A DNA stretch of 64,000 nt from Microbispora sp. H11081 (lineage in GTDB: Bacteria > Actinomycetota > Actinomycetes > Streptosporangiales > Streptosporangiaceae), in assembly GCF_012999535.1 (NCBI RefSeq), contig NZ_JABBWV010000001.1, positions 434,001 to 498,000 of the forward strand, written 5' to 3'. Position numbers and translations under genes: made by a program. Shown here piece by piece: positions 3,301 through 15,729 of the stretch. The notes beneath the pieces are model-generated. The model was given only the letters and a program-made list of their open reading frames with translations. It was not told the DNA's origin and did not search any database. The stretch's first letter is position 1, and each line of letters begins with the position of its first letter.

Positions 3301-4778
3301 CGCGCGACTCCCACGGTCAGGGTGGGAAGGCCGGAGGGCGCTCCCGTACGGGCCAGCGCGAGCAGGGCGTCGACGTCGAGGTGCTCCTCGACGAGGTCGG
3401 CCAGCAGTTCCAGCCGGCGTTCACGAGCCGCAGGGAAACCGGCCCCCGAGGGCTCCAGCCCGGCGACCTCGGCGAGGAAGGCGGCCCGGAACTCGTCGCC
3501 CTCCAGGGCGCCGTGCCACATCGTGCCAAAGACGCGGCCGACCCGGGCGCCGCCGAGGAACTCGTCGACATCGTGGGCGCGCGTGATCCGCCCGTGGTGG
3601 ATCTCGTATCCGGCGGCGACGGCCCCCAGCGCTTCGCCGCGCGACAGGCGCAGCACCTTGCCGGGGCGGAACTCGGTCGTCACGGGAAGCAGCCCGAGCC
3701 CCGGAGCCCGCGCGCCCGCCGGGCCCTCCACGCCCTCGGGGTCGTGGATCTCGGTGCCGAGCATCTGGAAGCCGCCGCAGATTCCGAGCAGCGGCCGGCC
3801 CGCCCGCGCATGCGCCTCGATCGCGGCGTCCAGGCCGCGTGAGCGCAGCCACGCCAGGTCGGAGAGCGTGGCCCGGGTTCCCGGCAGCACCACCACGTCG
3901 GCGTCGGCCAGGTCGCGGGCGGAGGAGACGAAGACGACGTCGAGGCCGGGCTCCAGGCCGAGGGCGTCGACGTCGGTGAAGTTGCTGATCCGCGGCAGGC
4001 GGACGACCGCAGTCCGCACGCGGGCGCCGTCCCGGCCGCGCCGGCCTTCGAGGTCGAGAGCGTCCTCGGAGTCGAGCCACAGATCGGGGTGCCACGGCAG
4101 CACGCCGTGGACCGGACGTCCGGTCAGGGACTCCAGCTGTTCCAGGCCGGGGCGCAGGAGGGAGCGGTCGCCTCGGAACTTGTTGACGACGAAGCCCGCG
4201 ATCAGCGCCTGGTCGGCGGGCTCCAGCAGCGCGAGGGTGCCGTACAGGGAGGCGAACAGGCCGCCGCGGTCGATGTCGCCGACCACGACGACGGGAAGGC
4301 CGGCATGCCGGGCGAGTCCCATGTTCACGTAGTCGCCGGCCCGCAGGTTGATCTCAGCGGGACTGCCCGCTCCCTCGGCCACGATCACGTCGAAACGGGC
4401 GGCCAGGTCGTCGTACGCGGCGTGCGCGGCCCGCGCGAGGTGGCGGCGGCCGGTGACGAAGTCGTTCGCCGCCACCTCGCCCGCCGGCCGGCCCATCACC
4501 ACGACATGGCTTCTGCGGTCGGAGCCGGGCTTGAGCAGCACCGGGTTCATCGCGGGCTCCGGCGCCACCCGGGCGGCCAGAGCCTGCACCCACTGGGCGC
4601 GCCCGATCTCGGCGGCCGAGCCGTCGCGGTCGTGGCAGACCATCGAGTTGTTGGACATGTTCTGCGCCTTGTACGGCGCCACCGACACCCCACGGCGGGC
4701 GAACGCCCGGCACAGCCCGGTGGTGACGACCGACTTCCCGGCGTCGGAGGCGGTGCCGGCGACGAGCAGACCACTCAC
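3297..4778 (-). CDS. cobQ: Cobyric acid synthase
   Basis: CobQ amidates side chains b, d, e and g of adenosylcobyrinic a,c-diamide using ATP and glutamine. The product is about 493 residues. It opens with a P-loop ([18 protein letters not shown]) typical of the dethiobiotin-synthetase-like half. The C-terminal half is a class I glutamine amidotransferase with the nucleophile Cys in [13 protein letters not shown] chose the GTG at 4778 because it overlaps the cobF stop as GTGA and places the P-loop a few residues from the start. An upstream in-frame ATG at 4814 would add 12 residues lying inside cobF. The gene is fully intact and coupled on both sides. Confidence 0.96.
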
Positions 4779-5537: not shown

Positions 5538-8500
5538 TCACGCGCCGTCCTCGAGGTCACCCTCGACCTCCAGGTAGACCTTCCGCAGTGCCCGCAGGGT
5601 CTCGTCGTCCGGCTCCGCCCACAGGCCGCGCTCGGCGGCCTCATGCAGGCGCTCGACGATGCCGCGCAGCGCCCACGGGTTCGACCCGCGCAGGAACTCC
5701 TGGGTGGTCTCGTCGAGAACGTACGACCTCGCCAAGGACTCGTACATCCAGTCGTGGACGACACCGGCGGTGGCGTCGAAACCGAACAGGTAGTCGACCG
5801 TCGCGGCCAGTTCGAACGCGCCCTTGTAACCGTGGCGCCGCATCGCGCCGATCCACCGGGGGTTGACCACGCGCGCGCGGAAGACCCGGTTGGTCTCCTC
5901 CTGAAGCGTGCGGGTGCGCACCGCGTCGGGCGAGGTCGAGTCGCCGACGTAGGCCTTCGGGTCGGATCCGGTCAGCGCGCGCACGGTGGCGATCATGCCG
6001 CCGTGGTACTGGAAGTAGTCGTCGGAGTCCGCGATGTCGTGCTCGGTGCTGTCGACGTTCTTCGCGGCGACCTTGATCCGCCGGTACGCGGCGCGCATGT
6101 CGTCCGCGGCGGGGACGCCGTCGAGGCCGCGTCCGTACGCGAAACCGCCCCACACCGTGTAGACCTCGGCCAGGTCGTCGTCGTCGCGCCACGTGCCCGA
6201 CTCGACGGCCTGCAGGATCCCGGCGCCGTAGGAGCCCGGCTTGGAGCCGAAGATCCGGGTGGTCGCCCGGCGCTCGTCGCCGTGCTCGGCCAGATGGGCG
6301 CGGACGTGCGCGCGGACGAAGTTCATCTCGTCGGGCTCGTCCAGCTCGGCCACAAGCTTCACAGCGTCGTCCAGCATCGCCACGACGTGCGGGAACGCGT
6401 CGCGGAAGAAGCCGGAGATGCGGACGGTGACGTCGATGCGCGGGCGGCCCAGCTCGGCGAGGTCGATGACCTTGAGGTCGCTGACCCGTCGCGACATGTC
6501 ATCCCATTCGGGGCGCACACCCAGCAGGGCCAGCACCTCGGCGATGTCGTCGCCGGAGGTGCGCATCGCGCTGGTGCCCCACACCGACAGACCCACCGAG
6601 GCCGGGTGCTCACCCGTCTCGTCGAGGTAGCGCCGCACCAGCGACTCGGCCATCGCCTGGCCGGTCTGCCACGCCAGCCGGGACGGAATGGCACGCGGGT
6701 CGACGGTGTAGAAGTTGCGGCCGGTGGGCAGCACGTTGACCAGGCCGCGCAGCGGTGATCCCGACGGGCCCGCCGCGACGTAGCCGCCGTTCAGGGCGTG
6801 CAGCAGCGCGTCCATCTCGCCGGTGGTGCGGGCCAGGCGCGGCACCACCTCGGTGGCGGCGAAGGCCAGCACCTGACGGACCACCGGGTCGTCGTGCAGG
6901 TCGTCCACGGCCGAGACGTCCCAGCCGGCCGCCTCCATCGCCGTGACCAGGGAGCGGGCCTGCTCCTCGTACGCGTCCACGGTCGCCGTCGAGGCGTCTT
7001 CTGGCAGGCCGAGGGCGGCGCGCAGGCCGGGTATCGCGTTGCCCACGCCGCCCCACTCCTGGGACGCGCGCAGGATCGCGAGCACCAGGTTGACCCGGGC
7101 CTCACCGGTGGGCGCCTGGCCGAGCACGTGCAGGCCGTCGCGGATCTGCACGTCCTTGATCTCGCAGAGCCAGCCGTCGATGTGCAGCACGAAGTCGTCG
7201 AACTCGTCGTCCTCTGGGCGGTCCTCCATGCCGAGATCGCGGTGCATCTCCGCCGCCCGCATCAGGGACCAGATCTCGCCGCGTATCGCCGGCAGCTTCG
7301 CCGGGTCCATCGTGGCGATGTTGCCGTACTCGTCGAGCAACTGCTCCAGGCGGGCGATGTCGCCGTACGACTCGGCGCGTGCCATCGGCGGGACGAGGTG
7401 GTCGACGATGGTCGCGTGGGCCCGGCGCTTGGCCTGGGCGCCCTCGCCGGGGTCGTTGACGAGGAACGGGTAGAAGAGGGGCAGGCTTCCCAGCACCGCG
7501 TCGGTGCCGCATTCGGCGGAGAGCGCGGCGTTCTTGCCGGGCAGCCACTCCAGCGAACCGTGCTTCCCGACGTGGACCACCGCGTGTGCGCCGAAGCCGC
7601 CTTCGGTCTCCGGCGCCTCCAGCCAGCGGTAGGCGGCCAGGTAGTGGTGGGTCGGAGGCAGGCCGGGGTCGTGGTAGATCGCGACGGGGTTCTCGCCGAA
7701 GCCTCGGGGCGGCTGGATGAGCAGCGTCACGTTCCCGGCGACGAGCGTGGCCAGGACGATCTCGCCCGCGTCGTTGACGAACAGGCCGCCGGGCGCCTCA
7801 CCCCACGCCCCGGCCATCCTCGCGCGCAGTGCGGCGGGGAGATCCGCGGTCCAGCGGGCGTACCGCTCGGCGCTGATCCGCACATGGGCGTCGGTGAGGT
7901 GCCCCGAGGTCAGCCATTCCTCGTCCTGGCCGCCCGCCGCGATCATCGCGTGGATCAGCGCGTTCCCGGCCTCGGTGTCGTCGTCGAGGTCCAGGCCAGG
8001 CACCGCGCCCGGCGCCCCCAGGTCGTAGCCGGCGTCGCGCAGCCGGCGCAGGAGGCGGATCGTGGAGACCGGGGTGTCGAGGCCGACCGCGTTGCCGATC
8101 CGCGAGTGCTTGGTCGGGTACGCCGAGAGGACCAGCGCGACCTTCTTCTCACTGTTGGGCACATGACGCAGGCGGGCGTGGTTGACCGCGATCGCGGCGA
8201 CACGGCGGCAGCGCTCCGGGTCGGCGACGTAGCGCGGGAGACCGTCGGCGTCGATCTCCTTGAAGGAGAACGGGGCGGTGATGATGCGCCCGTCGAACTC
8301 CGGGATCGCGATCTGGTTGGCGGAGTCGAGCGGGGTGACGCCGTCGTCGTTCGCCTCCCACTCCGCCCGGCCGCTGGTCAGGCAGAGGCCCTGCAGCACC
8401 GGGATGTCGAGGGCGGCGATCCGCTCCACGTCCCAGGTCTCGTCGTCACCGCCCGCGCCCGCCGAGGCGGGAACGCTGCCCCCCGCGGCGAGCACGGTGA

Positions 8501-9146
8501 CGACCAGGGCGTCGAGGGTCCCGAGCGCCTCGAAGAGGTCGCCGGGCGCGCTGCGCAGCGAACCGGCGAAGATCGGCAACCCGACGGCCTCGCCGGTCGC
8601 GTCGACGGCGTCAGCCAGGGCGTGGGCGAAGGCCGTGTTGCCGCTGGCCTGGTGGGCTCGGTAGTAGAGGATGCCGATCCGTGGCAGGGCGGCGTCGACC
8701 GGCGCGGTGCGCTCGGCGAAGCCCCAGGAGGGGATCGCCGTGGGCGGCTCGAAGCCTTCGCCGGTCAGGAGCACCGTGTCCGAGAGGAAGGCGTGCAACT
8801 GGGCCAGGTTGACCGGGCCGCCCTCGGCCAGGTAGCGGTGGGCCTCGGCCGCGACCCCGATGGGGACGCTGGAGAGCTCCATAAGTTCGGCGTTCGGCTG
8901 CTGCTCCCCGCCGAGCACGACGACCGGCGTCCCGGCGGCGCGGACGGCCGCCAGCCCCGGCCACAGGTCGTTCGGCGAACCGAGCAGACGTACGACGACG
9001 AGGTCGGCGCCCGCCACGCAGGCCTCAAGGTCGGCATCGCCGTCTCGCGCTGGATTGGCGAGTGCGTACGCGGCCCCGCTGGCCCGCGCGGAGAGCAGAT
9101 CGGTGTCGGACGTCGACAACAGACATAAACGTGCGGACGTGGCCAT
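5538..9146 (-). CDS. cobN: Aerobic cobaltochelatase large subunit
   Basis: CobN is the large catalytic subunit that inserts cobalt into hydrogenobyrinic a,c-diamide, working with two AAA-type partner subunits that are not in this window. The 1202-residue product is the expected length for the CobN/ChlH family and runs without interruption. It contains the conserved HVGKHGSLEWLPGK stretch found in this family. It is the first gene of the leftward cobN-cobF-cobQ-cobK operon. An excellent ribosome-binding site (GGAGGAGG) lies about nine bases before the ATG. A cobalamin riboswitch sits directly upstream, so expression should fall when adenosylcobalamin is plentiful. Confidence 0.97.
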   Translation of the reverse strand: MATSARLCLLSTSDTDLLSARASGAAYALANPARDGDADLEACVAGADLVVVRLLGSPNDLWPGLAAVRAAGTPVVVLGGEQQPNAELMELSSVPIGVAAEAHRYLAEGGPVNLAQLHAFLSDTVLLTGEGFEPPTAIPSWGFAERTAPVDAALPRIGILYYRAHQASGNTAFAHALADAVDATGEAVGLPIFAGSLRSAPGDLFEALGTLDALVVTVLAAGGSVPASAGAGGDDETWDVERIAALDIPVLQGLCLTSGRAEWEANDDGVTPLDSANQIAIPEFDGRIITAPFSFKEIDADGLPRYVADPERCRRVAAIAVNHARLRHVPNSEKKVALVLSAYPTKHSRIGNAVGLDTPVSTIRLLRRLRDAGYDLGAPGAVPGLDLDDDTEAGNALIHAMIAAGGQDEEWLTSGHLTDAHVRISAERYARWTADLPAALRARMAGAWGEAPGGLFVNDAGEIVLATLVAGNVTLLIQPPRGFGENPVAIYHDPGLPPTHHYLAAYRWLEAPETEGGFGAHAVVHVGKHGSLEWLPGKNAALSAECGTDAVLGSLPLFYPFLVNDPGEGAQAKRRAHATIVDHLVPPMARAESYGDIARLEQLLDEYGNIATMDPAKLPAIRGEIWSLMRAAEMHRDLGMEDRPEDDEFDDFVLHIDGWLCEIKDVQIRDGLHVLGQAPTGEARVNLVLAILRASQEWGGVGNAIPGLRAALGLPEDASTATVDAYEEQARSLVTAMEAAGWDVSAVDDLHDDPVVRQVLAFAATEVVPRLARTTGEMDALLHALNGGYVAAGPSGSPLRGLVNVLPTGRNFYTVDPRAIPSRLAWQTGQAMAESLVRRYLDETGEHPASVGLSVWGTSAMRTSGDDIAEVLALLGVRPEWDDMSRRVSDLKVIDLAELGRPRIDVTVRISGFFRDAFPHVVAMLDDAVKLVAELDEPDEMNFVRAHVRAHLAEHGDERRATTRIFGSKPGSYGAGILQAVESGTWRDDDDLAEVYTVWGGFAYGRGLDGVPAADDMRAAYRRIKVAAKNVDSTEHDIADSDDYFQYHGGMIATVRALTGSDPKAYVGDSTSPDAVRTRTLQEETNRVFRARVVNPRWIGAMRRHGYKGAFELAATVDYLFGFDATAGVVHDWMYESLARSYVLDETTQEFLRGSNPWALRGIVERLHEAAERGLWAEPDDETLRALRKVYLEVEGDLEDGA

Positions 9147-9194
9147 GGCCGGGCTCCTCCTCCGGGGTTCTCGCCCCGTACAGCGGTCGGATCA

Positions 9195-9320
9195 CCCTCG
9201 GCCAGTATCTGGCTGCAGCCCCTCGCGGGCCTGATCACAGTGGCGGAACCGCCCCGGAATCTCACCGGGTTCCTGCACCGAAGGCGTCCTGGCAGCCTAC
9301 GGGAGAACGCCCGCCACACG
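9195..9320 (-). promoter_or_regulatory. Cobalamin riboswitch upstream of cobN
   Basis: Read leftward, the leader contains the hallmark core GGTGAGATTCC followed by GGCGGTTCCGCCACTGTG (B12 box region), then a GC-rich arm and a closing GCCAGATACTGGCC element. The core lies at about 9225-9275. Between it and cobN, a CGGGG/CCCCG hairpin abuts the GGAGGAGG ribosome-binding site. That suggests the ligand controls translation initiation by sequestering the site. The outer boundaries are approximate. Confidence 0.92.
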
Positions 9321-10202
9321 TGATCCGGTCCATCCCGTCCTCCATGGGAACGGCAAGGGTCTCAGCCTCGAATCCGTCTTCCCGCCCGACCAGATCCCCG
9401 TCGCGACCCGGGAGCCGCTGGATGTCCCTGCCGGGTTTAGACATGTCCAGGTGTGCGGCATGGCGCCGAGGACGACGAGGATCGGCTGGTCGGAATCGAT
9501 CAGGTGGTGCGAGTCGGTTCGGCCGAACGGCCGTCGATTTCGCGCGGCTCTGCCTCCGCGACCGCCGAGCAGCAAATGGTGATCAAAATGAATGCCGCCC
9601 TGTGCCTCGGTGTGCCGAGTGAAGTGGCGCGGCAGCTGGAGGCGGACGGCCGGGGCCTCGGAGATGACCGGGTGGTAGTTGAGGGACGACGCCGATGGGT
9701 TCGAGAGCGATAGAGAATGTTGCTCGAGCGTTGCTGTCCTGCATGAAGGCACCTGCTCGTCCCATACTGCGGGACAGATTCCGACCGGACTTCAACCGGC
9801 GAGCGACGATGAGCTACGAACCTCCAGATCAGCCGCTACATCGCAGCATCACCTCCGCTCTACCGGGCGCACGAGTCATCGAGGTTAATGCTGTTACCCG
9901 TGTTCGGACGTGGCTCAGCGCCTGTGAAACCACCGTCACCGAAGCGAGGTGGCAGCTACGCTGAAGATCGCAGCCCGCGTAGCGGGGAAGCAGGCCCATG
10001 TAGGGAGTATCAGCTGGTGAAACGCTGGTATGCGCGAATGGCCGATGTTCAAGGCATTGGTTTCGCCGGAAGCCCTGGCGTCAACAGAGATCATTTGCCG
10101 GGAACCCGGATCCGCCCGCGCGAGGAGTACGGCTCGCTCTTGTGGCCAACCGCCAGTGGCACCACCTCCGCCTCTCCAGCCCACAACCGGGCATTCGGCG
10201 AT
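9321..10202. other. Island left edge without a supportable gene
   Basis: About 880 bases lie between the cobN riboswitch and the first credible start of the defence-like cassette. Several short frames are open here, including a rightward one beginning at 9809 and ending at 9964. A further frame enters the small cassette gene from 9888. None shows a recognised family, a strong ribosome-binding site or convincing codon usage. GC falls compared with the cob genes, which fits the start of acquired DNA. It may contain the cassette promoter and decayed sequence. Confidence 0.45.
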
Positions 10203-10604
10203 ATGCGCACCCCGGATACCGACACCCTCATCCGCTGGGTATGGGAAGGGCTGGAATTGCCGGGCAGTGCATCGGACTACCATTTCTTGCTGCAGAACGC
10301 GGTCGAGCAGTTCTGGTCACGCCGCCGTACCGCTCCTGCTGGGCTGCACTTCGTGGAAGTCTTCGCTCACCTGGATCTTCTCTTGATCGAGGCAGTGCCT
10401 CAGACCGTACTGATCAATGAGAAAAAACCCTCGCTCGGCTTTGTCCGCATTTCCAGCATCGCGACGTGGATCAACCTGCTGCACGCAGAAGGCGCGCTGC
10501 GTGACGCGCTTTCTGTTAGCAAGCGGATTCAGCGCTTCGGTGACAACTACCTCGATGAAAGGCTGGAGGCGAAGGTAGCCGCGTTGGATGAGGAGTCCGC
10601 ATGA
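10203..10604 (+). CDS. Small unknown protein, first gene of helicase-nuclease cassette
   Basis: I do not recognise this protein of about 133 residues. It is predicted largely helical (for example IRWVWEGLELPG and ISSIATWINLLHAEG) and has no signal peptide or membrane segment. Its stop overlaps the start of the helicase gene as ATGA, so the two are translationally coupled. The start is uncertain. The frame is open back to 9888 and includes an ATG at 10038, but residues before 10203 look poorly protein-like, and no start has a clear ribosome-binding site. Base composition is lower in GC than in the cob genes. Being encoded first and coupled to a large enzyme fits a regulator, inhibitor or structural subunit, but that is inference only. 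Confidence 0.6.
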   Translation: MRTPDTDTLIRWVWEGLELPGSASDYHFLLQNAVEQFWSRRRTAPAGLHFVEVFAHLDLLLIEAVPQTVLINEKKPSLGFVRISSIATWINLLHAEGALRDALSVSKRIQRFGDNYLDERLEAKVAALDEESA

Positions 10605-12649
10605 GCGGCACCCGGCTCGTTGACAAGGTGTCCAGTACGTCATATCTGGAAAGCGCCTTCGTCAAGTGGGTGCTGAGCGCCGCTGCTGGCGTAGGGATCT
10701 CCCGCCATGTGGCCGGGCAGTACCCGGTCGTGGTCGAGGACCGCACTTACCGGCTGGACTATCTGTTGATCGGATCGAGCCTTCGGGTGGTGGTTGAGCT
10801 CGACGGTTTCGAGTTTCACAGCAGCAGGACCGCCTTCGTTCATGATCGGATCCGGCAGAACGACCTCGTTGGCCTGAATTATGTCGTCCTTCGATTTTCC
10901 TATGCCGCGATTCGTGAGCACACTGCCCGTTGCGTGGCGCAGCTGCAAAGGGTGCTACTGCAAGATCCGGTCCTGGCCGCGTACGTCATCCCCGATCCCA
11001 TCGTCCCTGTCCCCGACGATATGGATCCCAACCCGTTTGGTCTGGTCACACCACCTCCGCCCCAGCCCGCGAACGACAGAGACTATTTCGATCGCGCTCG
11101 TAAGTGCATTGACCTGGGTCCGCTGCGTACATGCCAGCGAGATGCGTTGATCGCGCTGGCGAACTACTATCGCCGCGGCGAGGTCAACGCCGCATGCGTG
11201 ATGTCAGTGGGAGCAGGCAAGACCGCGCTGGGGGTCGCTGCCGCGCTCGCCTTCACGCGGCGCCGCGCGTTGATTGTGACACCTGGCCGTGTCATTCGCG
11301 GAACGTTCGACACAGCGCTCGACCCATCGTTGGCTGGCAACGTCCTATACACGCTTCGCGGAGGTCCGCTGATCGCCGGCTTGCGCGCCCCCGCTACCCA
11401 GGTACTCGACGGCGAAGACGGCGCGATCAGGGCGGTGAGCCGCGAGGCGCTGCTGAGCACCGATATAATCGTGACGAACTTCCACTCGCTCGGCAACGCC
11501 GCGACAAACGATGGGCTGCTAGCCAAGCTCGAGCCCGACGATATCGATTTCATCGTGATCGACGAGGCGCACATCGCTGCCGCAGACTCCTACCAGCGGC
11601 TATTCGCGCGTTTCCCGAGTGCGCGACGCTTGTTGATGTCAGCCTGTTTCAGCCGCGCCGACGGTAGGTCTGTAGCTGCGGACGTGGTCTACCGGTATAG
11701 GCTCATCGACTCGATCACTGATGGCCACGCCAAGCACTTGCGAGCGCACCGGTTCAGCCCGGACGTCGAGCAGACCGAATATGAAATCGCCTGGCCGGAC
11801 GGCATCCGTGAGTCGATCGTCGGCAAAGACGCCCTGCTGGCGGTGCTCGAGGATGAGCGCAAGGTCGCGCGAATCACCGCCACCTCCGAAGAGCCGATTC
11901 GAAGAATCATGACGATCGTGCGCGACCGCCTCGCGATACAAACCAACTCATTGGCACCGGTAAGGCCGCGCGTGCTGTTCGCCGCGCTTGGGCAACTCCA
12001 TGCCGAACAGATCTCGCGTATCGCCAACGAGTACGGCATCGCCAGCGCGACTCTGCACCATTCGATGACCGACTCCGACATCGCTGCCACACGCAAGAGA
12101 TTCGAAGCGGACTCGGGCAACCTTCAGGCGATCGTCCAGCTGAAGATGCTTGGCCAGGGCTATGACCTGCCTGCGATCACCGTCGTGGTGCCGATGCGGC
12201 CCTTCGGCACTTTTGGGGAGTTCTACCAGCTTGTGGGCCGAGGCATCCGCGTCGTCCACCATCCTCAGCTCAACGCCCGCCAAGAACAGCATCTGGACCT
12301 CGTCTACCACGGCGAACTGGGCCTCGACTCTCACCTAGAGACGCTCCGTGTCGAAAACGACATGGATCCACACCCCGCGGACGCTGACGCCTTCGGGGAC
12401 GCCCCACTCCCCGACCGGGCGACCAGACCCGGTACGCGGTCGAGTGTGCCAATGCCCAGCGTGAGCGTCCTTGCCGAACAGGGCGACACCCGTCAGCAGT
12501 TCCTGCACACCCTCGACCAGGTTCAGGCACGTCGGCAGGAGCGAGAACTGCACGCTTTGGCCAACAGTTATGCCAGATACGCAGCCACGACCCCCAACCC
12601 CAAACCATTCGAGGAGTTCGTCGCCGTGATCAGGAGCACCCATGGGTGA
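10601..12649 (+). CDS. DUF559-like nuclease fused to DEAH superfamily 2 helicase
   Basis: This 682-residue protein has two visible parts. Residues about 14-115 match the very-short-patch/DUF559 style of PD-(D/E)xK nuclease: E17 in SYLESAF, D53, E66 with D68 in VVVELDGFEFH, then D82, R85 and a closing VVLRFSY. Residues about 170-580 are a superfamily 2 helicase of the type III restriction Res style. Visible motifs are Walker A (VMSVGAGKTALG, near 200), DEAH in IDEAHIAA (near 321), a degenerate motif III (LMSACFS) and motif VI (QLVGRGIRV, near 543). The last 100 residues are charged and unassigned. It should translocate on or remodel DNA and could cut it. It overlaps both neighbours, so the three probably form one complex. 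Function in phage or plasmid defence is inferred from architecture and context. Confidence 0.9.
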   Translation: MSGTRLVDKVSSTSYLESAFVKWVLSAAAGVGISRHVAGQYPVVVEDRTYRLDYLLIGSSLRVVVELDGFEFHSSRTAFVHDRIRQNDLVGLNYVVLRFSYAAIREHTARCVAQLQRVLLQDPVLAAYVIPDPIVPVPDDMDPNPFGLVTPPPPQPANDRDYFDRARKCIDLGPLRTCQRDALIALANYYRRGEVNAACVMSVGAGKTALGVAAALAFTRRRALIVTPGRVIRGTFDTALDPSLAGNVLYTLRGGPLIAGLRAPATQVLDGEDGAIRAVSREALLSTDIIVTNFHSLGNAATNDGLLAKLEPDDIDFIVIDEAHIAAADSYQRLFARFPSARRLLMSACFSRADGRSVAADVVYRYRLIDSITDGHAKHLRAHRFSPDVEQTEYEIAWPDGIRESIVGKDALLAVLEDERKVARITATSEEPIRRIMTIVRDRLAIQTNSLAPVRPRVLFAALGQLHAEQISRIANEYGIASATLHHSMTDSDIAATRKRFEADSGNLQAIVQLKMLGQGYDLPAITVVVPMRPFGTFGEFYQLVGRGIRVVHHPQLNARQEQHLDLVYHGELGLDSHLETLRVENDMDPHPADADAFGDAPLPDRATRPGTRSSVPMPSVSVLAEQGDTRQQFLHTLDQVQARRQERELHALANSYARYAATTPNPKPFEEFVAVIRSTHG

Positions 12650-14804
12650 GTACGGTCTGGCCGACGCGCTCGCCGTCGCCGACCCCGACCAATTCCTGCG
12701 CCTGGAACGAGACGCAGGCCGCAACGGACGCTTCGCCTGGATCGACCAACTGGCTGCGAACCTGCTCACCATGGCCCTGTCCGGCCGGAATCTGGTGGAC
12801 ATAACACCAGGAGAACGCGGCCAGAAGAACCGCGACATCATCACGGTGACCTTCCTGACCCCGCAAGATCGCGCTCTCGTCGGCGAGACATTCTCCTTGT
12901 CGGCTCAGCAAGCCCGAGGCGCCTGGTTCCTGCCCGAACAGGCCACACTCAAAGCCGGCACACTCAACCTGTCCGCCCACGCTCGCCACTACCCGTGGCA
13001 GGCCGTCACTATCGCGGGCGAAGACGTCGCCCGCGTCCACATGGGCTCGACGGCAGATGCCTTGCTAGCGTGGTCTTTGCTCATCCCGCTGTTTGATGCG
13101 CTGATGGCACCGATCACGATCCGGGCGTCCGGATCGGCGCAGTCAGCCGATGAGCAGCACAAAGCGTGGACGGCGATCCTGCAGTCATACACCGATTTGG
13201 GCATCGCGCCCACCCCCGAGGTGATGGTCTTCGCCTACCGCGGCGGGTGGAGCCAACTCGATCGCGCCGGTCAAGTGCAAGCGAGAATCGCACTGCTGGA
13301 CTTGCTGGCCCGTCACGATCTCCTCCAGATCGCGGCGCGCTTTCGCGCCTCGCGCCTGCAGAAACTGATCGCCGCGACGATGAAGAAGACGGGCCAAGGC
13401 TCGCCTCTCGCCCGCCGAGTGCTCACCAAGGTGCTGCAGCCGACTCTCAGCGCATATTTCGCCGGCGACTGGCTGGCGTTCCTGGACCACATTGAGGTGC
13501 CGCCGAACTCAGGCGAAGAGCTCGTTACGGCACTACCGGAGCCCAAACTCTATGTCGGTGGATCGGCCAAGGCCGAGTCCGCAGCCGCCCAGCACGGCCT
13601 CAACCCAGATGACGTCCACGCGATGCTGGCGGCCTTTCTCGGTCAGGACAGCTCCGTCTCACCCGTTGAGCAACGCGTCGATGTCCTGAAACGCTGGTGG
13701 CAGCAGTTCGATGCGATTCACGCCCGGCAGACGGCAAACATGCCGTCCTTGTGGGGACTGGTGGAAGAAGGGTTCTACTCGATCGGCTACGGGGAAGGGC
13801 CACAACGACAGCTCTACCGCACTCTCCTTAGCACGGACCTCGTCGAGGACGTCAACCGGCTCTGGGACGGAACCACGCTGGCCCGCTGGCCGCAGGTCAT
13901 CGTCAGTGAGCCCTACCCGCACAGGCTCATGGCCGAGACCCTCGGTCCGGCCGTCACCTTCTGGCACAGCGTCGCCCTGACCACCTGGTACGTCTGTGAG
14001 GGCCCCACCTCACGGACCTCGCTGACCGGGCTGCGCGCGTACCACAAAGCGCACCTCACCCAACTCGCCGACGCCGAGACCCCCATTCATCCGAGCCTTT
14101 TCGACGAGCTGGAGAATGCCGAGCGTTACCTCGGGCCGCCTCAAGAACTGCCCTCGTATGAGCACCAATTGAAGTTGGCCGACGGACACATCGGTTTCCG
14201 CGTCACTGGAGGAGGCCAGCGCCGCGACGGATTCGCAATTCTGCGTGACATCGTCACACGCCACCGGCAGGGGTGGACCCAGCGCTACCTGACGCACTAT
14301 CTCCAGCATCGATGGACGAGCGAACTTACCCACGTTGCGCGTGAACTCCACAAGTTCATCGCGGTCAACGGCAAAAGCCCAACATTTCGCCAGTTCGCCC
14401 GCGTGGCCGCCACCGCCGCCAACCATTGGTTCAACGGTGACCTGGCCGGCCTCTACACCGCCATCGGCGAGAAGGCTCCAGCCACACCTCGGCGCGTCGA
14501 CCTCCTTCCCATCGCCGCGCACGACTTCGTCGACGCTGTCTACGCCCGTCTCGGAGGGCGGCCCTATGAGGAGCTTCTGCGCGTCACGAACTTCCCACTG
14601 GCCGACGAGTACCGGCAGAAAGCCAGGTTGGCGGCCGCCAGTGTGCTCTACCTGCAGATAGCCGAGGCTCTCGGCCGCGCCCCCGACCCCAAGGAGTTCG
14701 GTGCAGCCCGCCACGAATGGTCTTGGGCGGGAAGCGTTGATGAGGGATGGCTCATCTATCAGAAAGCCATCGACGAAGTACTGGCACACAGCCAGCACCG
14801 GTGA
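12642..14804 (+). CDS. Large unknown protein coupled to the helicase-nuclease
   Basis: This 720-residue soluble protein has no motif I can assign to a known family. It starts eight bases inside the end of the helicase gene, so the pair is translationally coupled. It reads as a mixed, mostly helical protein rich in Trp and Leu, with no signal peptide or membrane segment. Two C-terminal stretches, near residues 570-600 (VNGKSPTFRQFARVA) and 675-700 (EALGRAPDPKEFGAA), vaguely resemble the short helical repeats that accompany HNH homing nucleases. I see no HNH motif. Codon and base composition match the two preceding genes. It could be a recognition, adaptor or effector subunit of the helicase, but nothing in the sequence decides which. 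Confidence 0.87.
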   Translation: MGEYGLADALAVADPDQFLRLERDAGRNGRFAWIDQLAANLLTMALSGRNLVDITPGERGQKNRDIITVTFLTPQDRALVGETFSLSAQQARGAWFLPEQATLKAGTLNLSAHARHYPWQAVTIAGEDVARVHMGSTADALLAWSLLIPLFDALMAPITIRASGSAQSADEQHKAWTAILQSYTDLGIAPTPEVMVFAYRGGWSQLDRAGQVQARIALLDLLARHDLLQIAARFRASRLQKLIAATMKKTGQGSPLARRVLTKVLQPTLSAYFAGDWLAFLDHIEVPPNSGEELVTALPEPKLYVGGSAKAESAAAQHGLNPDDVHAMLAAFLGQDSSVSPVEQRVDVLKRWWQQFDAIHARQTANMPSLWGLVEEGFYSIGYGEGPQRQLYRTLLSTDLVEDVNRLWDGTTLARWPQVIVSEPYPHRLMAETLGPAVTFWHSVALTTWYVCEGPTSRTSLTGLRAYHKAHLTQLADAETPIHPSLFDELENAERYLGPPQELPSYEHQLKLADGHIGFRVTGGGQRRDGFAILRDIVTRHRQGWTQRYLTHYLQHRWTSELTHVARELHKFIAVNGKSPTFRQFARVAATAANHWFNGDLAGLYTAIGEKAPATPRRVDLLPIAAHDFVDAVYARLGGRPYEELLRVTNFPLADEYRQKARLAAASVLYLQIAEALGRAPDPKEFGAARHEWSWAGSVDEGWLIYQKAIDEVLAHSQHR

Positions 14805-14976: not shown

Positions 14977-15180
14977 ATGGCGTTGCGGCTGGTTTTATAT
15001 AATCTTTGCCCGGATTGCGGCTTGGATGGTGCTTCTGGGTCGTTCGCAGCGGTCGAAGAACGCGGACATTCTGGTCCTGCGCCATCGGATCGCGGTGTTA
15101 CGTCGACAGGCGGCAAGACCTCAGCCCTGGGCAGGCTGCCGACCTTGTCCCGCCGTCCGACCGGGACGAGCTGATCGCGT
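14977..15180 (+). pseudogene. Transposase (integrase-core type) N-terminal remnant
   Basis: The translation contains RSKNADILVLRHRIAVLRRQ followed by ARPQPW. This is the conserved N-terminal segment of a common actinobacterial DDE transposase/integrase family. The usual beginning (MALRL...) is present at 14977 but in a different frame from the conserved segment, so at least one frameshift has occurred. The catalytic core is entirely missing. It runs into unrelated YciI-family debris near 15150. This is a relic of an insertion sequence next to the acquired cassette. Confidence 0.62.
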
Positions 15181-15332
15181 ATGGGCCGCTGCTCTCCGAC
15201 GACGGCACCACCTGGCTGGGCACGGCGCTGCTGGCTCGGGCGCCGGACCCAGATGCGGCAGGCGCCGTTCTGACCCTGGACCGGTACGCCGACATCGAGG
15301 TCCACAACTAGGAGTTCGGCGGGCGCCGGTAA
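15156..15332 (+). pseudogene. YciI-family protein C-terminal remnant with nonsense TAG
   Basis: The frame encodes IAYGPLLSDDGTTWLGTALL and later DRYADIEVHN, the C-terminal half of a YCII-related dimeric alpha-beta protein. The next codon is TAG at 15309. The frame then continues EFGGRR to a TAA at 15330-15332, which is the usual family ending after a Trp codon. TGG to TAG is therefore the likely inactivating change. The N-terminal half is missing where the transposase debris joins. No start codon or ribosome-binding site is left. Confidence 0.65.
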
Positions 15333-15425
15333 CAAGCACTTGGTCGTCGCCAGCTAGGGCCAGAACTACCCGCGTCGGAGATCGACCAGTGAGGGCCGGG
15401 TGAGGCAGGCTGCAACCGATCCAGT

Positions 15426-15652: not shown

Positions 15653-15729
15653 TGGTAGGGCGGGTGGGACTTGAACCCACGACCCACGGATTATGAGTCC
15701 GATGCTCTGACCGGCTGAGCTACCGCCCC
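15653..15729 (-). tRNA. tRNA with CAT anticodon (Met elongator or Ile2)
   Basis: Read leftward, the 77-base gene begins GGGGCGGTAGCTCAGCCGG and folds as a complete cloverleaf. The anticodon loop is CTCATAA (anticodon CAT), the T-arm is GTGGGTTCAAGTCCCAC, and the acceptor arm closes with CCGCCCT, discriminator A and an encoded CCA. Sequence alone does not firmly separate elongator Met from lysidine-modified Ile2. Its 3' end points toward the acquired cassette, a typical arrangement for integration at tRNA genes. Confidence 0.95.

Follow-up and report, generated by a model that had tools for sequence, protein, structure and literature searches.

The subject of this study is a three-gene cassette of Microbispora sp. 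H11081. It lies in a stretch of 64,000 nucleotides (NZ_JABBWV010000001.1, positions 434,001-498,000), which is called the window below and in whose numbering all positions without a locus label are given. Three rightward genes overlap one another (table 1), genes 1 and 2 by an ATGA at 10601-10604 and genes 2 and 3 by eight bases at 12642-12649, as a first-pass annotation of the same DNA had described. The lower content of guanine plus cytosine (GC) that it had claimed relative to the neighbouring cob region was also found: the cassette region reaches 0.60-0.66 (1-kb steps, 9 to 16 kb), compared with 0.71-0.76 to the left of 9 kb, 0.71-0.76 from 16 to 21 kb, and 0.68-0.71 from 21 to 29 kb.

Table 1. 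Features of the cassette region (window positions; aa, amino acids; SF2, superfamily 2)
Feature	Position	Strand	Remarks
Upstream stretch	9729..10016	+	89% alike in the Microbispora siamensis copy
Gene 1	10017..10604	+	195 aa, GTG start; family alignment, Pfam scan
Gene 2	10601..12649	+	682 aa, nuclease-motor fusion; Pfam, PADLOC, NCBIfam and PHROG matches, invariant motif residues
Gene 2, nuclease domain of Vsr/DUF559/MTES_1575 type, PD-(D/E)xK	10640..10957	+	about residues 14-119; left border from conservation only
Gene 2, SF2 motor	11123..12256	+	residues 175-552; GAGKT, DEAH, SACF, QxxGRGxR
Gene 3	12642..14804	+	720 aa; unmatched in four libraries (E <= 1)
tRNA-Met (cat)	15653..15729	-	right border of the cassette region

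The middle gene had been described as a DUF559-like nuclease-helicase in which a PD-(D/E)xK core (E17, D53, E66, D68) is joined to a DEAH helicase with Walker A and motif VI, and both halves of this description held. In Pfam, gene 2 matched ResIII (3.5e-13), Helicase_C (1.6e-7), DUF559 at residues 57-119 (8.8e-5; 22.8 bits, above the cut-off of 20.6), and MTES_1575 at residues 46-117 (2.7e-6; 27.8 bits, below the cut-off of 38.2). The pattern D-x(12)-E-x-D is the core of the PD-(D/E)xK fold. All four nuclease residues were identical in the nine aligned rows (window included), as were K207/T208 of Walker A, the DEAH at 321-324, and Q543/G546/R547/R550 of motif VI, while the position of motif III reads SACF in every row. 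With DUF559 above its cut-off and an invariant core, gene 2 carries a DUF559/Vsr-like nuclease; the MTES_1575 domain is described as a Vsr-fold nuclease in PMC3710099. Matches in the libraries other than Pfam all lay over the motor and comprised restriction motors, helicases of the XPB/RadD type, and the phage helicases of PHROG 16 (1.7e-27). Twelve PADLOC families were matched, the best being mREase_IV (8.4e-12), which was restricted to residues 306-552. In NCBIfam, the EcoAI family was matched at 1.4e-10 (40 bits against a curated cut-off of 550), and the repair helicases RadD and XPB at 2.7e-7 and 4.1e-5. The solved structures 7clg and 3h1t matched gene 2 at about 1e-6.

Gene 3 had been called a large protein of no recognized kind, and its 720 aa indeed found no family at E <= 1 in Pfam, PADLOC, NCBIfam, or PHROGs; its profile found nothing in the PDB at the same threshold. 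The Streptomyces homologues of gene 3, which are 45-46% identical, carry a C-terminal TerD domain (1.1e-23 and 5.1e-24). In the window copy, Pfam detected neither a TerD nor a TerB component, TerD being confined to the Streptomyces gene 3. From comparative genomics, TerD has been proposed to bind nucleotide-like signals (PMC7159879, PMC7824862). Because gene 3 is the part that gained TerD in Streptomyces, it is the best candidate for sensing or recognition, and the fusion suggests that it is the sensing part of the cassette. In three near-identical Streptomyces plasmids (L011/L012, at about 12828-12834; L numbers denote loci), gene 3 is frameshifted and the TerD part is annotated alone as a TerD family protein.

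For gene 1, the proposed start at 10203 was revised: the true start is the GTG at 10017, 186 bases earlier, which gives a product of 195 aa. About 60 residues before the Met at 10203 were common to all 10 aligned relatives (11 rows with the window), and the shortest of the 11 rows shares the N-terminal stretch from its annotated start on. Moreover, DNA similarity to L003, L005, L006, L045, and L046 begins at 10004-10026, and a GGGAG lies 9 bases ahead of the in-frame GTG. Therefore, the conserved residues, the onset of similarity, and the GGGAG together place the start at 10017. The stretch upstream of it presumably holds a putative promoter and a ribosome site. In its 133-aa form, gene 1 had no match at E <= 1 in the four libraries, and the corrected form, scanned against Pfam only, had no family; four full-length relatives gave sub-threshold Pfam matches (0.16-0.18) or none. 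The structural model of the 133-aa form was of low confidence (mean predicted local distance difference test score, pLDDT, 64.5). Its best PDB matches were mostly tetratricopeptide repeat (TPR) proteins, none of them at E <= 0.001, and the product may tentatively be described as mainly helical and TPR-like at its C end.

Relatives of the cassette were collected by tblastn-based and profile searches, and near-identical records were counted once: the three Streptomyces plasmids H1-H3, and the pairs L005 = L014, L006 = L015, L003 = L016, L001 = L010, L017 = L046, and L048 = L037. Merging was judged from identical match statistics or identical place. Three order-wide gene 3 hits (G260, G286, and G107; 2.9e-4 to 9.1e-4) were discarded as chance, G148 (L020) was kept as a remnant, and the gene 2 hits G313, G153, and G151 were fragments and were counted as remnants. 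Three open overlapping frames were found in eight loci, namely the window, L001 (M. siamensis), L003 (Nonomuraea zeae), L004 (Paractinoplanes), L005 (Nonomuraea cavernae), L044 and L045 (which belong to the same family), and L013 (a Streptomyces plasmid). The L011/L012 group of Streptomyces, with its frameshifted gene 3, is a ninth locus with full-length gene 2. The cassette of L002 is cut by a contig end, and six sets of remnants were recognized (L047, L048/L037, L049, L007, L008, and L020).

The three genes are inherited together. In each of the seven open triads that are not from Streptomyces, genes 2 and 3 overlapped by exactly eight bases; genes 1 and 2 overlapped in all eight triads, by 4 bases in seven and by 19 in L005. 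Beyond the sister species, the DNA shared with the window consisted of the three genes only, plus four short matches (about 110 bases each) in L047 and L049. Compared with L001, the ratios of nonsynonymous to synonymous substitution rates (dN/dS) of the three genes were 0.22, 0.13, and 0.19. Helicase homologues occurring without the two partners had been named in the first-pass annotation as evidence against its reading; no full-length gene 2 without gene 1 or gene 3 was found among the nine distinct loci, and gene 2 without gene 3 was seen only as fragments. Remoter motors in other plasmids, about 24-29% identical and alike in the motor part only, were excluded from the homologues of the system. 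Since the arrangement is conserved in eight loci whose flanking DNA, sister species aside, is unshared, it is not due to chance. Together with the invariant catalytic residues and dN/dS of 0.13-0.22, the eight open triads indicate that the cassette is a selected unit. The closest copy is that of M. siamensis (94% in gene 3). A recent transfer from this species was considered but is not claimed: the cassettes are 94% identical, yet the two genomes also have parts of the right flank in common (82.5% and 94.5%), and shared inheritance is therefore as likely as transfer.

The distribution of the cassette is patchy. It was present in 2 of 15 Microbispora genomes. Within the order, 12 of 345 genomes contained gene 3 at E <= 0.001 (eight of them strong), and 9 of 342 contained gene 2 at E <= 1e-15 (six full length). 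When the class was sampled evenly, 2 of 394 genomes had gene 3 (E <= 0.001) and 2 of 394 had gene 2 (E <= 1e-40), both in Microbispora. Four plasmid records, all from Streptomyces, contained gene 3, and the identical four were those in which at least 80% of gene 2 was covered, out of 52 matching plasmid records; the Streptomyces copies are on linear plasmids. A phage or viral origin was rejected: gene 3 had no relative in 50,697 phage records, peptide patterns of genes 2 and 3 found none in viral contigs, and the phage matches of gene 2 (2 records at E <= 1e-10) were confined to the motor region.

The place of the cassette in Microbispora was compared from the right flank, because cobN is not followed by this flank in any of the six genomes compared. 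The tRNA-Met lies 0.85 kb from gene 3 in the window and was also present in all nine further Microbispora loci (L001 and L056-L063). In six loci, the gap between a DUF4232 gene and the tRNA varied widely (about 0.1, 3.8, 4.6, 8.1, 9.6, and 10.5 kb in L061, L059, L057, L001, L060, and L058, respectively), and only L001 among these six has the cassette; the left neighbour in the window is the cob region rather than the DUF4232 gene. Because the tRNA is constant and the gap differs in size, the cassette lies in a tRNA-bordered variable region. Partial copies of the tRNA-Met end in L060 (5968-6028 and 8770-8830) suggest repeated integration at tRNA-Met in the genus. Outside the genus, an integrase stands beside a tRNA-Val 0.8 kb upstream of the cassette in L045, and another phage-type integrase lies upstream of the cassette in L044.

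Several smaller features surround the genes. On the left, a cobalamin riboswitch (9183-9297, minus strand; Rfam RF00174, 47.1 bits) lies just upstream of a cobN-like gene (5538-9146). Between gene 3 and the tRNA, at 15006-15403, short frames resemble the start of a transposase (ILVLRHRIAVLRRQ, judged by eye) and are possibly the remnant of an insertion sequence. About 106 bases upstream of the cassette (9783-9888) are 80% alike in L047 (14949-15055) and L049 (12230-12335), where they sit 2-5 kb from cassette remnants; this stretch is possibly the end of an element.

A neighbourhood analysis for repeated occurrence in defence islands had been among the proposed checks. The flanks of 12 loci with usable surroundings (the window, L001-L006, L012, L013, and L044-L046) were searched within a radius of 10 kb. 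A known defence gene was found near 6 of the 12, two of these six being attributed by inspection. The neighbours were GajA (2.9e-221) and GajB (2.8e-163) in L005, DruE (1.9e-97) in L006, pPIWI-RE (7.6e-63, at a distance of 2.7 kb) in L004, and DUF262/HEC-06 (3.5e-37) in L012. Two of these families are uncommon in the order: of 81 genomes, 4 contained GajA and 13 contained pPIWI-RE. For genomes of about 7 Mb, this corresponds by arithmetic to odds of roughly 1/7,000 and 1/2,000, respectively, that a randomly chosen site has such a gene at a distance of up to 10 kb. In a pooled scan of 70 of 101 neighbouring frames, which gave the best 25 of 34 matched families, QatC (2.9e-56) and GajB (5.5e-41) were among the matches listed. 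QatC was assigned to L002 and the GajB-like helicase to L013 via motifs read by eye, and BLAST and phmmer attempts to trace the two matches to these loci gave nothing. The matches listed also included mREase_IV, ShosA, PDC-M19B, PsyrA, one REase_MTase_IIG (5.4e-15), and one REase_MTase_I (4e-11), none of them attributed to a locus. L044 gave a sub-threshold NACHT match. In Nonomuraea zeae (L003, 329-5389), 2 kb upstream of the cassette, there is a laminin-G-like protein of 1686 aa with a weak, sub-threshold C-terminal match to NucA/NucB DNase.

Based on the conserved and selected triad, its patchy and mobile distribution with frequent decay, the absence of a described match, and the island context of half the loci, we hypothesize, with a probability of about 0.62, that the cassette is an undescribed three-gene defence system against phages or plasmids, in line with the undescribed defence or anti-plasmid module of the first-pass annotation. 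All recognizable enzymatic parts are in gene 2, which would make its product the effector: an SF2 motor that is driven by ATP and preceded by an N-terminal nuclease of the Vsr/DUF559 type, in the arrangement of the motor-nuclease subunit of type I restriction enzymes. The large and mainly helical gene 3 product would recognize the invader or a signal of the invader, and the gene 1 product would be a small adaptor working with it. Genes 3 and 1 together would load or unleash the motor-nuclease, which would then track along DNA, its presumed substrate, and cut it, with protection of the host as the outcome. Since the cassette has no modification partner, self and non-self would have to be told apart by other means.

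Several observations weigh against this hypothesis. In L006 and L046, the frames of genes 1 and 3 are open although the motor-nuclease is missing: all that is left of gene 2 in L006 is a two-frame remnant (3536-3680), and L046, in which genes 1 and 3 overlap each other (8559-8562), has none of it. These two genes may have a task of their own or may be decaying. Pairwise dN/dS of gene 3 among L003, L006, and L046 was 0.18-0.26, and therefore either gene 3 is still constrained or the losses of gene 2 are recent. No domain was recognized in gene 3, and its structural model was poor (mean pLDDT 49.6; no PDB match at E <= 0.001). Weak HNH_repeat matches below the cut-off (0.011 and 0.013) in 2 of 11 gene 3 members are a weak lead, insufficient for a claim of DNA binding, and a search of 21 genomes for HNH_repeat proteins for comparison found none. 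Among the matches listed for the 70 neighbouring frames scanned together, none to a defence gene could be attributed to the surroundings of the window copy or of L001, L003, L045, or L046; the unattributed matches may include some from these loci. Finally, the background rates of GajA and pPIWI-RE concern two defence families only, chosen post hoc, and the enrichment is not a formal test.

Of the other explanations, restriction without modification, near the type I R subunit or type IV enzymes, survives best. According to this assumption, gene 3 would read a modified or particular sequence and gene 2 would cut there. To judge by the mREase_IV, EcoAI, and 7clg/3h1t matches, which are among its best, the gene 2 motor is nearest to type I and type IV motors, and the order of nuclease before motor is that of HsdR, in which the nuclease at the N end is followed by two motor domains. 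In contrast, no methyltransferase or HsdS-like gene is present in the cassette, and gene 3 matches no target-recognition domain. This explanation is a sub-case of the defence hypothesis, from which it differs only in what gene 3 reads, and we consider it unlikely. A signal-gated form of restriction likewise appears unlikely: gene 3 would sense a nucleotide-like alarm or infection cue and, via gene 1, would license a non-specific, methylation-free motor-nuclease. A DNA-tracking nuclease under a Ter-type signal would be, to our knowledge, an undescribed mode of self/non-self control.

A module for DNA repair or stress response, in which a Ter-linked sensor is coupled to helicase-nuclease processing and no defence is involved, would agree with the likeness of the motor to RadD and XPB, with the TerD of the Streptomyces form, and with L006 and L046 having kept genes 1 and 3 but not the nuclease. 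Nevertheless, the presence in only 2 of 15 genomes of the genus, the repeated decay, and the defence neighbours of 6 of 12 loci fit defence better than core repair, and we regard this explanation as distinctly improbable. That the cassette is cargo serving a mobile element through maintenance or the exclusion of rival elements, with phage defence as a side effect, is very unlikely: the tRNA-Met border in Microbispora, the integrases of L045 (by tRNA-Val) and L044, and the linear Streptomyces plasmids agree with it, but outside the sister species only the three genes are shared, bar the four matches of about 110 bases, and no gene for recombination, replication, or transfer accompanies the cassette.

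If the cassette is protective, it would add to the defence systems of actinobacteria one in which two protein families have no match in the libraries searched. The natural TerD fusion would then point to the sensing subunit, and the proposed connection of Ter domains to defence at the level of nucleic acids would become open to testing. The cassette would also provide a marker family for the defence islands of actinomycetes, where phage work touches the producers of antibiotics.

Neither gene 1 (in its 133-aa form; in Pfam also in the corrected form) nor gene 3 matched a described system at E <= 1 when compared with Pfam, PADLOC, NCBIfam, and PHROGs. A match to a described restriction or repair system had been named in the first-pass annotation as speaking against its reading. 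A description of the triad was not found in the open-access literature searched; a related operon may be contained in the work of Anantharaman et al. (2012) on Ter systems, which was not covered. The statement that the gene set is unlike Hachiman, Gabija, and Druantia was confirmed, as defining parts of each are missing from the cassette. Druantia and Gabija are helicase-based defences that adjoin the cassette in L006 and L005, respectively, but neither DruE nor GajB was matched by gene 2, and genes 1 and 3 have no match at all. The OLD-type nuclease GajA and the UvrD helicase GajB of Gabija are not in the cassette and were found as neighbours in L005. In Hachiman, a sensor helicase is reported to control the nuclease (PMC12278908). 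Both systems thus combine a nuclease with a helicase, but these are two separate genes in Hachiman, and the cassette adds two partners. PADLOC includes models of HamA and HamB, neither of which was matched in the cassette at E <= 1.

The restriction motors HsdR/EcoAI and mREase_IV were among the best matches of the gene 2 motor and likewise have nuclease and motor on one chain, but the matches span the motor only and remain far below the NCBIfam cut-off. Neither an HsdM methyltransferase nor an HsdS specificity subunit was found in the cassette; among the 70 neighbouring frames scanned, REase_MTase_IIG and REase_MTase_I were each matched by one frame of unattributed locus. In type IV enzymes like SauUSI, a nuclease of the phospholipase D type, a helicase, and a reader of modified bases form one chain. 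Membership of this group was rejected: the PADLOC match is limited to the motor (306-552), and the gene 2 nuclease is of the DUF559/MTES_1575 type. The pPIWI-RE module, proposed to restrict invading DNA, also consists of three overlapping or closely spaced genes that include a restriction endonuclease and a helicase (PMC3702460). Its helicase is of the DinG type, whereas the DinG match of gene 2 is marginal (2.1e-4), and no PIWI match was found in the cassette.

Among the known systems, Shango offered the closest lead; it is reported to be an anti-phage system with TerB, helicase, and ATPase domains (PMC10250203). It has three genes and a DEAD/DEAH helicase, as the cassette does, and a link to Ter domains through TerB, which in the Streptomyces form of the cassette is through TerD. 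In contrast, genes 1 and 3 of the cassette contain no TerB or ATPase family, and the nuclease is fused to the helicase. TerB_N proteins were present in four other Microbispora genomes, where a Shango-like operon order was read from the frames; in L064 and L065, the TerB_N protein is followed by frames of 450 and 753 aa. TerB, TerB_N, and TerB_C had no match in genes 1 and 3 or in the scanned relatives, and hhalign against three TerB_N proteins gave probabilities of 0.27% for the gene 3 family and 0.26% for the gene 1 family. BLASTP of gene 2 against the helicase frame of one of the Shango-like operons of Microbispora gave a best E-value of 1.1, and SngC was not among the 12 PADLOC families matched by gene 2, though the SngC model matched a neighbour at one locus. 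Without TerB, an ATPase family, profile similarity, or helicase similarity, membership in Shango was rejected. Therefore, judged by its sequences, the cassette appears to be an undescribed combination, in which two partners without a known family are joined to an effector of a known kind.

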